Source of the DNA: an uncultured Prevotella sp.
GTDB taxonomy: Bacteria > Bacteroidota > Bacteroidia > Bacteroidales > Bacteroidaceae
NCBI GenBank assembly: GCA_900319905.1
Contig: ONQB01000032.1
Span: forward strand, 1 to 34,059
Reading direction: 5' to 3'
DNA: 34,059 nucleotides
Numbering within the stretch: position 1 is the stretch's first letter; each line of letters begins with the position of its first letter. Below are positions 10,400-33,450 of the stretch, piece after piece. Made by a program: the position numbers and the translations under genes. The notes below the pieces were generated by a model. It was not told the origin of the DNA, made no database searches, and worked only from the letters and a program-made list of their open reading frames with translations.

Positions 10400-10546
10400 A
10401 TGGCTAATTTCTGGACAAGAAAGAAAGAGGACTACTCCAAGGACGAGGAAACCATGCAGTCGGAAGACTTCATGGATCGCATGACAAAGATGCAACTGAA
10501 AAAGACCGTGCCCAACGAGAAGCCCCTTATTGAAAATACCAAATAA
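10400..10546 (+). CDS. Small charged protein (48 aa) between prfA and pyrF
   Basis: An ATG at 10400, 12 bp after the prfA stop, opens a 48-codon frame ending in TAA at 10544-10546. The product begins [12 protein letters not shown] and is rich in Lys, Asp and Glu, with four internal Met and no signal peptide or membrane segment. It fills the gap between prfA and pyrF almost exactly, leaving 28 bp before the preferred pyrF ATG at 10575. That snug operon placement is the main evidence that it is real. I do not recognise a family, and function is unknown. A chance open frame of this size is possible. Confidence 0.55.
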
Positions 10547-10574
10547 AGAAAGTTATCGCAATCATATCGCAATT

Positions 10575-11396
10575 ATGAATAGAGCAGAACTTGTAAAGGA
10601 AATCTTCGCAAAGAAGTCATTCCTTTGCGTCGGCCTCGATACCGACATCAATAAGATACCAACATGTCTCAAAGAGGAAGATGACATGATCTTCTCTTTC
10701 AACAAGGCCATCATTGACGCCACAGCCCCTTATTGCGTGGCCTACAAGCCAAACCTGGCGTTCTACGAATGCTACGGACTCGACGGCATGGCTGCCTTTG
10801 AGAAGACCATCGACTACCTGCATAAGTTCTATCCCAACCATCTCATCATTGCAGACGCCAAGCGCGGTGACATCGGCAATACCTCCACCATGTATGCCAA
10901 GACCTTCTTTGACGAATACGGTGTCGACGCGCTCACAGTGGCTCCCTATATGGGCGAGGACAGCGTGACGCCATTCTTGGAATACAAGGACAAATGGGTC
11001 ATTGTGCTGGCACTGACAAGCAACAAGGGCAGCCACGACTTCCAGCTCACCGAGGACAAAGACGGCGAGCGCCTCTTTGAGAAGGTCATCCGCAAGACGC
11101 AGCAATGGGGCTCCACCGACAACATGATGTATGTAGTGGGTGCCACCCAAGGTTCCATGTTTGAGGACATCCGCAAGCTGGCCCCCAATCATTTCCTGTT
11201 GGTACCAGGTGTAGGCGCACAAGGAGGCAGTCTGCAAGAGGTCTGCAAATACGGAATAATCAAGGACTGCGGATTACTGGTCAACTCTTCCAGAGGCATC
11301 ATCTACGCCGGTCACGACGAGCACTTCGCCGACGCAGCCGCCGAGGCCGCCAAAAAGTTGCAGGTGCAGATGGCCGAGCAGTTGGCAAAGCTTTAG
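10575..11396 (+). CDS. pyrF: Orotidine 5'-phosphate decarboxylase
   Basis: PyrF decarboxylates OMP to UMP, the last step of pyrimidine nucleotide synthesis. The 273-residue product belongs to the longer subfamily (type 2) of OMP decarboxylase. Signature residues are FLCVGLDTD near the N-terminus, [13 protein letters not shown] with D94, K96 and D99 forming the catalytic Asp-Lys-Asp cluster, and VPGVGAQGG for phosphate binding. The ATG at 10575 is chosen because it gives the family N-terminus; an in-frame TTG at 10530 would add 15 residues that overlap the upstream small ORF. The gene closes this housekeeping run and is followed by the first palindromic repeat element, 39 bp after the stop. 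Confidence 0.94.
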
Positions 11397-11435: not shown

Positions 11436-11620
11436 AGAGGGAGTATCAAAATTGGAGAAGTCCGGAAGTTTAAAAGTCCAGAAGTCCGGAAGTCCGGAAG
11501 TCCAGTCAAATGTATAAGTATCTGATAATAAGATGTAAATATACTAATGACTGAACTTCCGGACTCCTGGACTTCCGGACTTCTAAACTTCTGGACTCCT
11601 CCAATTATGATACTCCCTCT
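11436..11620. repeat. Octamer-armed palindromic element, copy 1
   Basis: Two 73-bp arms (11436-11508 and 11548-11620) are inverted repeats of each other with 65 of 73 positions matching, around a 39-nt AT-rich loop. The outer 22 bp of each arm (11436-11457, 11599-11620) differ at one base. Inside, each arm is six tandem copies of an 8-bp unit, consensus RGAAGTYC (11456-11503, and inverted at 11553-11600). The units meet the core sequence AGTCAAATGTATAAGTAT at 11504. A second copy is at 21445-21656. All seven inner mismatches are transitions. As RNA it would be a very long hairpin after pyrF. Confidence 0.95.
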
Positions 11621-11859: not shown

Positions 11860-12903
11860 ATGGAATTTACCGCTAAGCAAATAGCCCAGTTCATACAAGG
11901 CAAGATTGAGGGCGACGAGAATGCAGCCGTACATACCTTCGCAAAGATTGAGGAAGGTGTGCCGGGATCCATCTCATTCCTGGCCAACGAGAAATATGTT
12001 CATTACGTCTACTCCACCAAGTCAAGCATCGTACTCATCGACAGCAGCATCACGCTGACTAAGCCGGTCTCCACAACGCTCATCCGCGTGGACAACGCCC
12101 GTGACTGCGTGGCTAAGCTGTTGCAGCTGTATGCTTCGGCACAGCCCAACAAGACCGGCATCGATCCACTGGCCTTCATCTCACCGAAAGCCAAGTTGGG
12201 CAACAATTGCTATGTAGGTGCATTCGCATATATTGCCGAAGGCGTAGAGATTGGCGACAACTGCCAGATTTATCCAGGCGTCACCATCATGGAGAACGTG
12301 AAGGTGGGCAACAACTGTCTGTTCTATCCCCACGTGTCCATCTACCACGACTGCCGTCTTGGCAACAATGTCGTGCTCCACTCCGGTGCCGTAATCGGTG
12401 CCGACGGCTTTGGCTTTGCACCCAATGCAGAGACACAACAGTATGACAAGATACCACAAATCGGCATCGTCACCATCGAGGACAACGTTGAGATCGGTGC
12501 CAACACCTGCGTAGACCGTTCCACCATGGGCTCCACCTATGTACGCAAAGGCGTGAAGCTCGACAACCTCGTGCAGATAGCCCACAACACCGACATCGGT
12601 GCCAACACGGTGATGTCCTCGCAAGTGGGTGTAGCCGGGTCGACGAAAGTCGGTGAGTGGTGTATGTTCGGTGGTCAGGTAGGCGTCTCAGGCCACATCA
12701 CTATCGGCGACCACGTGCTGCTCGGTGCGCAGTCGGGTGCTCCTGGATCCATCAAGAGCAACCAAACGCTGATCGGCACTCCGCCTATGCCCAAGATCGG
12801 TTACTTCAAGAGCCAGGCCATCTTCCGCAGACTTCCCGACATCTACAAGCAGCTCAACGACTTACAAAAAGAAGTAGACAAGTTGCGTGAGCAACTGAAA
12901 TAA
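11860..12903 (+). CDS. lpxD: UDP-3-O-acylglucosamine N-acyltransferase
   Basis: LpxD adds the N-linked 3-hydroxyacyl chain to UDP-3-O-acyl-glucosamine, the third step of lipid A synthesis in the cytoplasm. The 347 residues consist of an N-terminal substrate-binding domain (about 1-100), a left-handed beta-helix of hexapeptide repeats (about 105-315, many I-G-D-N / V-G-N-N turns), and a C-terminal helical extension. The catalytic base is probably H242 in [10 protein letters not shown]. It is the first gene of the lpxD-lpxC/fabZ-lpxA-miaA run, preceded by its own -7 box. A spacer of 75 bp separates it from lpxC/fabZ. Confidence 0.96.
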
Positions 12904-14373: not shown

Positions 14374-14384
14374 AAGCATAAGCA

Positions 14385-15155
14385 ATGAATCAAATAAGTC
14401 CATTAGCATACGTTCACCCAGAAGCCAAATTGGGAGACAACAATGTCATAGGCCCCTTCTGCTATATAGACCGCAACACGGTGATGGGTGACAACAACGT
14501 ACTGCAGAACAGCGTGACCATCAACTATGGTGCACGCATAGGCAATAACAATGAGATATTCCCGGGTGCCAGCATTGCAACCAAGCCCCAGGATCTGAAG
14601 TTCAAAGGCGAAGACACGGTCTGCGTGATCGGTGACTTCAACAGCATCCGCGAGAACGTCACCATCTCACGCGGCACAGCCTCCAAGGGCAAGACCGTTG
14701 TAGGCGACCACAACCTCCTCATGGAGAACATGCACCTTGCCCACGACTGCGTGCTGGGCAGCCGTTGCATCATCGGCAACTCTACAAAGTTCGCCGGTGA
14801 AGTGACCATCGACGACAATGCCATCATCTCTGCCACCGTACTCTGCCATCAGTTCTGTCACATCGGTGGATATGTCATGATACAAGGCGGTTGCCGCTTC
14901 AGCCAGGACATCCCACCTTATATTATTGCCGGCAAGGAGCCCACACGCTACGCAGGCATCAACCTTGTGGGACTGCGCCGGCACGGCTTCAGCAACGAGC
15001 TCATCGAACTCATTCACAACGCCTACCGCACGCTCTACAGCGAGGGCATCCTGGCCGACGGTATCAAGAAGATCAAAAGCGAACTGCAAGTAACACCCGA
15101 AGTGCAATATATCATTGACTTCGTCAGCAGCTCAAAGCGTGGTATCATCAGATAA
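14385..15155 (+). CDS. lpxA: UDP-N-acetylglucosamine acyltransferase
   Basis: LpxA transfers a 3-hydroxyacyl chain from ACP to the 3-OH of UDP-GlcNAc, the first step of lipid A synthesis. The 256-residue protein is a hexapeptide-repeat beta-helix (about residues 5-190) with a C-terminal helical domain. The catalytic histidine is H120 in MHLAHDCVLG, and the family segment NSIRENVTISRGT precedes it. It follows lpxC/fabZ by 11 bp and ends 31 bp before the preferred miaA start, so three lipid A steps and FabZ are made from one transcript. Length and motifs are normal. Confidence 0.97.
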   Translation: MNQISPLAYVHPEAKLGDNNVIGPFCYIDRNTVMGDNNVLQNSVTINYGARIGNNNEIFPGASIATKPQDLKFKGEDTVCVIGDFNSIRENVTISRGTASKGKTVVGDHNLLMENMHLAHDCVLGSRCIIGNSTKFAGEVTIDDNAIISATVLCHQFCHIGGYVMIQGGCRFSQDIPPYIIAGKEPTRYAGINLVGLRRHGFSNELIELIHNAYRTLYSEGILADGIKKIKSELQVTPEVQYIIDFVSSSKRGIIR

Positions 15156-21384: not shown

Positions 21385-21415
21385 GAAGCCTGTTTCCGAG
21401 AAGGAAGCAGGCTTC
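21385..21415 (+). terminator. Rho-independent terminator after rpmA
   Basis: GAAGCCTGTTTCC pairs with GGAAGCAGGCTTC, a 13-bp stem with one G-T wobble and a 5-nt loop. It is followed by a moderately T-rich stretch (TCGTTTAT). Placement 31 bp after the rpmA stop fits. Confidence 0.8.
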
Positions 21416-21444
21416 ACTCGTTTATATCAAACCATTTATTTTTA

Positions 21445-21656
21445 AAGGGTGTATCAAATTGAGGAAGTACAGAAGTCAAGAAGTTCGGAAGTACAGAAGT
21501 CGGGAAGTTCAGAAGTTCGGAAGTACAGAAGTTCAGTCAAATGTATAAGTATTTGATAATAAAACCATTATCGTAATGACTGAACTCCCGAACTCCCGAA
21601 CTTCTGAACTTCTGGACTTCTGAACTTCTGGACTTCTCCCATAATAATACACCTTT
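21445..21656. repeat. Octamer-armed palindromic element, copy 2
   Basis: This has the same design as copy 1. The left arm has nine tandem octamers (21463-21534, consensus RGAAGTYC with GAAGTAC variants) and the right arm seven inverted octamers (21582-21637). The core begins AGTCAAATGTATAAGTAT at 21535 and ends AATGACT at 21581; its first 28 bases match copy 1 with one difference, while the rest of the loop has diverged. Outer ends (AAGGGTGTATCAAATT at left, an imperfect inverse at right) resemble those of copy 1. The unequal number of units in the arms points to slippage or recombination. Confidence 0.93.
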
Positions 21657-33344: not shown

Positions 33345-33450
33345 GACTTTTCGGCGAAGAAGCTACGACCTTTCAGCGAGGATGCAGTGGCTTTTCGCCG
33401 AAGAGGCAGTGGCCTTTCGGCGAAGAAGCAACGGCCTTTCGGCGATATGG
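33345..33450. repeat. Degenerate 22-bp tandem repeat, about 4.8 units
   Basis: Units start at 33345, 33367, 33389, 33411 and 33433, each close to GRCYTTTCGGCGAAGAAGCA plus two bases; the fifth is cut after 18 bp (ending GGCGATATGG). Units vary by several substitutions, and the third has CGCC where the first, fourth and fifth have CGGC. There are no spacers, so it is a minisatellite rather than CRISPR. Confidence 0.9.

Follow-up and report, generated by a model that had tools for sequence, protein, structure and literature searches.

An octamer-armed palindromic repeat with terminator-like ends, found mainly at gene 3' ends in an uncultured Prevotella

Introduction

Between pyrF and lpxD (Pfam assignments), the window, that is, the whole stretch of 34,059 nucleotides of uncultured Prevotella DNA analysed here, holds a long palindrome with arms built of tandem octamers. 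An initial annotation of this DNA described it as a palindromic element and named mobility as one possibility. This raises the question of what such an element is: whether it belongs to a family, how its copies came to lie where they do, whether the pairing of its arms is maintained, and what it may do at the end of a gene.

Results

Ungapped pairing of positions 11436-11508 with 11548-11620 gives 65 matches in 73, exactly as the initial annotation had it, and its further description holds as well: the 22-bp termini are near-identical (21 of 22 positions match), each arm contains six octamer copies, both arms being called by Tandem Repeats Finder, and a recount of the pairing finds seven mismatches in the octamer part, every one a transition (five A.C and two G.U when read on the + strand). 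The left arm reads AGAAGTCC GGAAGTTT AAAAGTCC AGAAGTCC GGAAGTCC GGAAGTCC. The predicted RNA fold of the element has an energy of -118.7 kcal/mol, while shuffled sequences average -45.1 (z -17.1). The window also holds a second copy (Table 1), which had been overlooked and whose 18-base core AGTCAAATGTATAAGTAT is identical to that of the first; for both copies RNA folding predicts a stable hairpin. Nowhere else in the window do arms of 73 with gaps of 0-60 reach at least 50 matches, and no Rfam RNA family matches the window at the gathering score. A terminator scan limited to loops of 3-8, which found 12 sites in the window against 11.3 in shuffles overall, called neither copy. Separately, Tandem Repeats Finder reports a 22-bp tandem repeat of 4.4 copies at 33349-33445.

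Table 1. Coordinates of the two copies in the window, their parts and their neighbours
Feature	Coordinates	Strand	Basis
Whole element: outer stem, octamer arms and core	11436..11620	.	Arm pairing
Left outer stem, GGGAGTATCAAAATTGGAG, terminator-like	11436..11457	+	21/22 pairs, family flanks, related stems in other species
Left arm, six octamers RGAAGTYC	11456..11503	+	Tandem Repeats Finder, arm pairing
Conserved 49-bp core AGTCAAATGTATAAGTAT...TAATGACT	11504..11552	+	74 genome core sites, <=3 mismatches
Right arm, reverse-complement octamers	11553..11600	-	Tandem Repeats Finder, arm pairing
Right outer stem, then TCTCGTCTTT	11599..11620	-	Arm pairing
Upstream gene pyrF (OMPdecase PF00215)	10530..11396	+	Pfam
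Downstream gene lpxD (PF04613)	11860..12903	+	Pfam
Second copy, between rpmA and convergent subtilase gene	21444..21656	.	Core match, blastn, Pfam neighbours
Core of second copy	21535..21581	+	Core pattern search
Separate terminator-like hairpin 3' of rpmA, upstream of second copy	21385..21415	+	Terminator scan

The element belongs to a family. In the source genome (3.11 Mb in 63 contigs, 86% complete), the core matches 74 sites at up to 3 mismatches against 5 for a reversed control, the octamer dimer 278 sites at up to 1 mismatch against 2 for its control, and blastn finds 124 matches to the element, both strands of the palindrome counted. Copies were gathered from stretches fetched around core and octamer sites rather than from the whole genome; these stretches contain 97 octamer clusters and 55 copies with terminal inverted repeats, i.e. 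bounded on both sides by the outer repeat (pairs up to 400 bp apart). The bounded copies include 24 of exactly 147 bp, which have a mean pairwise identity of 0.849 (range 0.694-0.980) and flanks unrelated to each other. The family consensus reads AAGR GGRTGTATCAAAATTGGAG - octamers - AGTCAAATGCATAAGTATCTGATAATAAGGTATCATTATAGTAATGAC - octamers - CTCCAATTTTGATACACCC TCTT. Some clusters lack the outer repeat, hold several cores in a row or form tandem arrays, and 28 of 41 two-armed octamer clusters are at loci without a listed outer-repeat pair, some of them retaining one degenerate end. Hairpins of 40-59 bp make up 8 of the 55 bounded copies; most bear octamer fragments and, judged by sequence, look like collapse of the palindrome. 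The view of a repeated, mobile-looking element is supported by the core sites, by the second window copy and by the dispersal described below; the initial annotation had also considered that the genome and its relatives might hold no further copies, and many are present.

Three loci of this genome show arrangements of their own. At L085 (contig C59, 21091-21355) an octamer pair recurs six times at an exact spacing of 50 bp, as a tandem array of half-elements, and at L117 (contig C58) a tandem array of gagacggtcgccacaaagtaat adjoins an element copy. At L072 (contig C16, 82565) an element lies, as read by eye, between an apparent SusC-like gene start and the start of another gene, an arrangement that resembles a deletion junction.

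The location relative to gene ends, proposed earlier as a check, places the copies at gene 3' ends. Among the 92 of 97 clusters with called neighbours (the 5 others being dropped), 47 lie between convergent, 42 between tandem and 3 between divergent genes, as against 4, 28 and 17, respectively, for the 49 gaps in these stretches that carry no element and measure 60 bp or more (Fisher test, p 9e-7 for divergent and 1.4e-7 for convergent). None of the 92 lies inside a called gene, and the median distance from an element is 45 bp to a stop codon (n=136) and 120 bp to a start (n=48), all location and distance figures depending on gene calls made by an ORF and codon-bias script instead of a gene finder. 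Mere tolerance of insertions at gene ends would yield the same bias.

How widely is the family dispersed? Octamer trimers with up to 1 mismatch match 7 of 150 genus genomes, with 449 sites in the source genome, 266 in the sister species G211 and 1-7 in each of the remaining five. The core pattern, in a draw of 121 family genomes to which G211 did not belong, matches the source genome alone. The exact octamer-core junction GRAGTNCAGWCATTA matches 42 of 249 genus genomes, where single matches are largely chance since its reversed control matches about 25 genomes, at most twice each; the counts are 90 in G211, 68 in the source genome, 28 in G129, 24 in G297, 11 each in G178 and G261, 9 in G263, 8 each in G205 and G167, and 6 in G148. 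In copies read outside G211 and the source genome the octamer usually reads GGAGTTCA and the core AGACATTA, one side often being TTGTCT or ATGTCT. An order-wide search for GRAGTNCAGWCATTA matches 20 of 295 genomes, once each except in the source genome, so that, among the genomes sampled, no multi-copy octamer elements are seen outside the genus. Phages and plasmids gave no match to one 147-bp copy used as query, and viral contigs none to two exact patterns. In G182 (L218, 1473-1520), octamers and AGACATTA stand in frame within an argC-like reading frame with Semialdhyde_dh domains.

Comparison with the sister species covered 11 sites of the source genome with both flanks located in fetched G211 sequence, the flanking DNA being mostly 74-87% identical. 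The element is missing at eight of these sites (L004, L022, L031, L052, L062, L065, L075 and L108), among them the pyrF-lpxD site of the window (L031); two carry a restructured element (L033, L091) and at one (L088) the two flanks do not lie next to each other. Empty sites in a relative, suggested earlier as a check, thus exist, and the copies are, to judge from the sequence comparison, young and dispersed. From dispersal and empty sites together we infer mobilisation, and the machinery plays no part in that step. G211 also holds an orthologous element (L204, ~14380-14700) with about six copies of a 16-bp unit, GATTACTTGATTATCA, within its core.

The outer ends tell a further story, as they resemble a terminator-like hairpin. 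As a family average, T makes up 0.42-0.56 of the 8 nt that follow TCTT, and A 0.43-0.44 of the 8 nt just outside AAGR, each against 0.29 further out, giving a T-tract after the stem that varies between single copies. The outer stem AGGGTGTATCAAAATT with up to 1 mismatch occurs in 56 of 299 genus genomes, including the source genome and G211, against about 5 for the reversed control. Of 31 matches at 30 loci of other species (one locus per genome), 15 can pair with a complementary arm if up to 2 mismatches are allowed; the arm is no more than 35 bp away in 14 cases and 151 bp away in the remaining one. These 15 hairpins lie in tandem (5), convergent (5) and unclassed (5) settings and never in a divergent one, and for 10 of them the 9 nt after the hairpin include 5 T or more. 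The other 16 matches have no complementary arm that good, several reading by eye as hairpins with more mismatches. In G271, G391, G185, G178, G191 and G228 the outer ends enclose 58-359 bp of other sequence, with GGAGTTA-rich arms in G185 and G391. A longer end of the source genome's element (19 bases, up to 3 mismatches) is found in 4 of 12 relatives (15 times in G211, 2 in G320, once each in G297 and G325). In G391 (L337), a stretch with the outer stem is present at 1164 and again 294 bp on, at 1458, in a partial tandem duplication.

Given these related stems and the A/T-rich flanks, the ends resemble a hairpin of genus-wide, terminator-like type that holds the octamer palindrome in its loop. 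The earlier statement that the element is not a plain terminator has to be qualified, as the outer ends resemble a terminator-like stem that stands alone elsewhere in the genus. Termination of transcription in both directions is the likeliest effect at a site, as suggested by the terminator-like anatomy and the 3'-end location. Only 3 of 9 element-free G211 gaps score an ordinary terminator, so simple replacement of a terminator by the element is not supported; rpmA is followed by a hairpin of its own ahead of the second copy, and selection for termination left no visible sign.

Discussion

We lean, without great confidence, towards a composite origin, in which a terminator-like hairpin was loaded with an octamer-armed palindrome. 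The outer 22 bp would be a bidirectional hairpin of the genus-wide type, with an A-rich side, a GAGGGTGTATCAAAATT stem and a T-rich side, and a second palindrome, made of tandem octamer arms around the conserved core, would fill its loop. This composite may recently have been dispersed as a single unit to the 3' ends of many genes in this lineage, moved by a putative machinery that acts in trans and leaves no target-site duplication. The copies would then decay, as octamer numbers change and internal deletions collapse the element to short hairpins, and at a gene end they would probably act as transcription terminators on both strands.

Ends of this kind could instead be the terminal inverted repeats of an ordinary MITE, i.e. 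of a deletion derivative of a DDE-transposase insertion sequence, which we regard as a serious if rather doubtful possibility. The terminal inverted repeats, the high copy number and the absence of coding sequence agree with it, as do the different interiors held by similar ends in other species. Target-site duplications, proposed as a check in the initial annotation, are however not in excess in 55 copies at offsets of 0-8 and lengths of 2-9, and the T-tracts after 10 of the 15 better short hairpins of other species are like those of terminators. An insertion sequence with the same ends was not found in the stretches examined, although draft genomes may omit one; in the source genome this search took pairs up to 400 bp apart in fetched stretches and 100 of 118 end sites. 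In 40 stretches of relatives, the only pair of ends spanning less than 3000 bp and enclosing a long frame (in G271, 1682 bp) was rejected as an autonomous element, being two small elements around a gene without transposase domain. Likewise, when 463 proteins encoded in element-bearing stretches were compared all against all, no family recurred at more than 4 loci as a linked enzyme. The flanks themselves show a weak excess of inverted matches, both in the source genome (positions 1-4, 0.623 vs 0.575, 19 of 2000 permutations) and in other species (positions 2-5, 0.403 vs 0.291, 0 of 2000), which fits a longer stem equally well as a palindromic target.

It is also conceivable, and in our judgement unlikely, that terminators sharing one sequence were there beforehand and that the octamer palindrome entered their loops repeatedly, in independent events. 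Other species do have a similar outer hairpin that is empty or carries unrelated inserts, and octamer elements without the outer repeat exist. Yet no such hairpin is seen by eye at the eight G211 sites that lack the element, arms, core and ends are common to the 24 copies of equal length, and most short hairpins of the source genome keep octamer remnants and so look collapsed rather than empty.

A host RNA structure under selection, either a stabiliser of mRNA 3' ends or a regulated terminator, would explain the 3'-end location, the strong predicted fold and the A/T-rich flanks, and it bears on the earlier suggestion that transition-only mismatches signal maintained pairing of the arms. That suggestion is not supported. 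In the 24 copies of 147 bp, arms match at 0.797 within copies vs 0.803 between copies, with the within-copy value reached by 1649 of 2000 permutations for the octamers and 835 of 2000 for the ends. In an alignment of 22 of these copies (L108 and L110, with divergent cores or indels, being omitted), covariation is close to that of shuffles: standard pairs amount to 87.0% vs 86.9%, double-change pairs to 10 vs 9.4, and the covariation score to 0.119 vs 0.111, with 51 of 500 shuffles reaching the observed value. In 28 tandem settings, from a count that took 67 of 92 clusters (25 without recognisable core being dropped), transcript-sense mismatches comprise 121 GU and 122 AC, and the core lies along transcription in 12 and against it in 16. 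An octamer-type count on 41 of 97 clusters is mixed: the GTAC fraction correlates between arms at 13 loci with terminal inverted repeats (r 0.64, 124 of 5000 permutations), less so over all 41 loci (r 0.26, 268 of 5000); the remaining 28 show no such correlation (r 0.03), and the GTCC fraction shows none in any of the three sets. We thus rejected maintained pairing and, with eight of the 11 comparable sister sites empty, consider a selected host structure quite improbable. The transitions fit the octamer variants, which themselves differ mainly by C/T and A/G, and we conclude that copies mainly inherit the palindrome from the source copy, after which it decays; a palindrome whose mismatches are all transitions is not necessarily one whose pairing is maintained.

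Finally, a REP/REPIN-type element moved by a RAYT (Y1 transposase, PF01797) would likewise be palindromic, extragenic, abundant and free of target-site duplications, but is very improbable, as PF01797 is absent at threshold from the source genome (an 86% complete draft), the eight places where it occurs in 7 of 12 genus genomes searched have no octamer pair, and no GTAG or CGTC tag is seen by eye at the ends of the 147-bp consensus. At L152, L153, L154 and L155, relatives' RAYT genes stand among short repeats of their own, which by eye form an ordinary REP-like system distinct from the octamers.

The composite origin invites a wider and tentative proposal, to which we attach limited credence: across Prevotella, a bidirectional terminator hairpin may serve as a safe-harbour chassis whose loop lineages load with differing, often palindromic modules, the unit spreading to 3' ends by an undescribed, duplication-free transposition. 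If one repeat were both selfish DNA and a transcription stop, the tolerance of a compact genome for many recent insertions would be explained, and such a repeat would change large numbers of 3' ends in a single lineage. The sister species' empty sites, and bursts confined to single species, offer a way to search for the mobilising system.

Does the element belong to a described system? The initial annotation could name no family with an octamer architecture, and the open-access literature yields none: octamer, core and one outer-stem string occur in no paper in an open-access full-text search, and shorter outer-stem strings return, in the text accessible there, only a paper on aphid mariner elements, which is not relevant. 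In their accessible parts, PMC4596501, PMC12306157, PMC10969869 and PMC3733652 do not describe such an architecture.

We read the element as a variant of terminator-like, MITE and REP repeats. The BOX repeats of Streptococcus pneumoniae are modular, with a repeatable middle unit, and we know of no octamer arms in SPRITE or BOX. According to the accessible part of PMC10969869, SPRITE and BOX are clustered and inserted into one another, SPRITE being Rho-independent-terminator-like; compared by description only, terminator likeness and nesting of repeats recall the Prevotella element, which belongs to another phylum. The same part describes Rickettsia palindromic elements of ~150 bp, some in frame in genes; also by description only, size and palindrome are alike, and the in-frame octamers of the argC-like gene in G182 may be compared, whereas no classed cluster of the source genome lies within a called gene. 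REP, BIME and REPIN share the character of high-copy extragenic palindromes, REP/REPIN bearing a GTAG or CGTC tag beside a short palindrome (PMC3733652, accessible part), but the Prevotella element is far longer, has tandem octamer arms and no tag seen by eye, and no RAYT was found in its genome. BrickBuilt of Porphyromonas gingivalis is described, in the accessible part of PMC4596501, as a MITE with an internal minisatellite and no transposase remnant, with 23-nt repeats, 12-bp ends like those of the IS5-family ISPg1/ISPg9 and 19 listed copies. Both occur in Bacteroidales and place terminal inverted repeats around a tandem-repeat interior; BrickBuilt, as described there, has 23-nt repeats and GAGACCTTTGCA-type ends, while in the Prevotella element, with ends of the type given above for the stem, 8-nt repeats form both arms of one palindrome, a word whose stem (palindrom-) is absent from PMC4596501.
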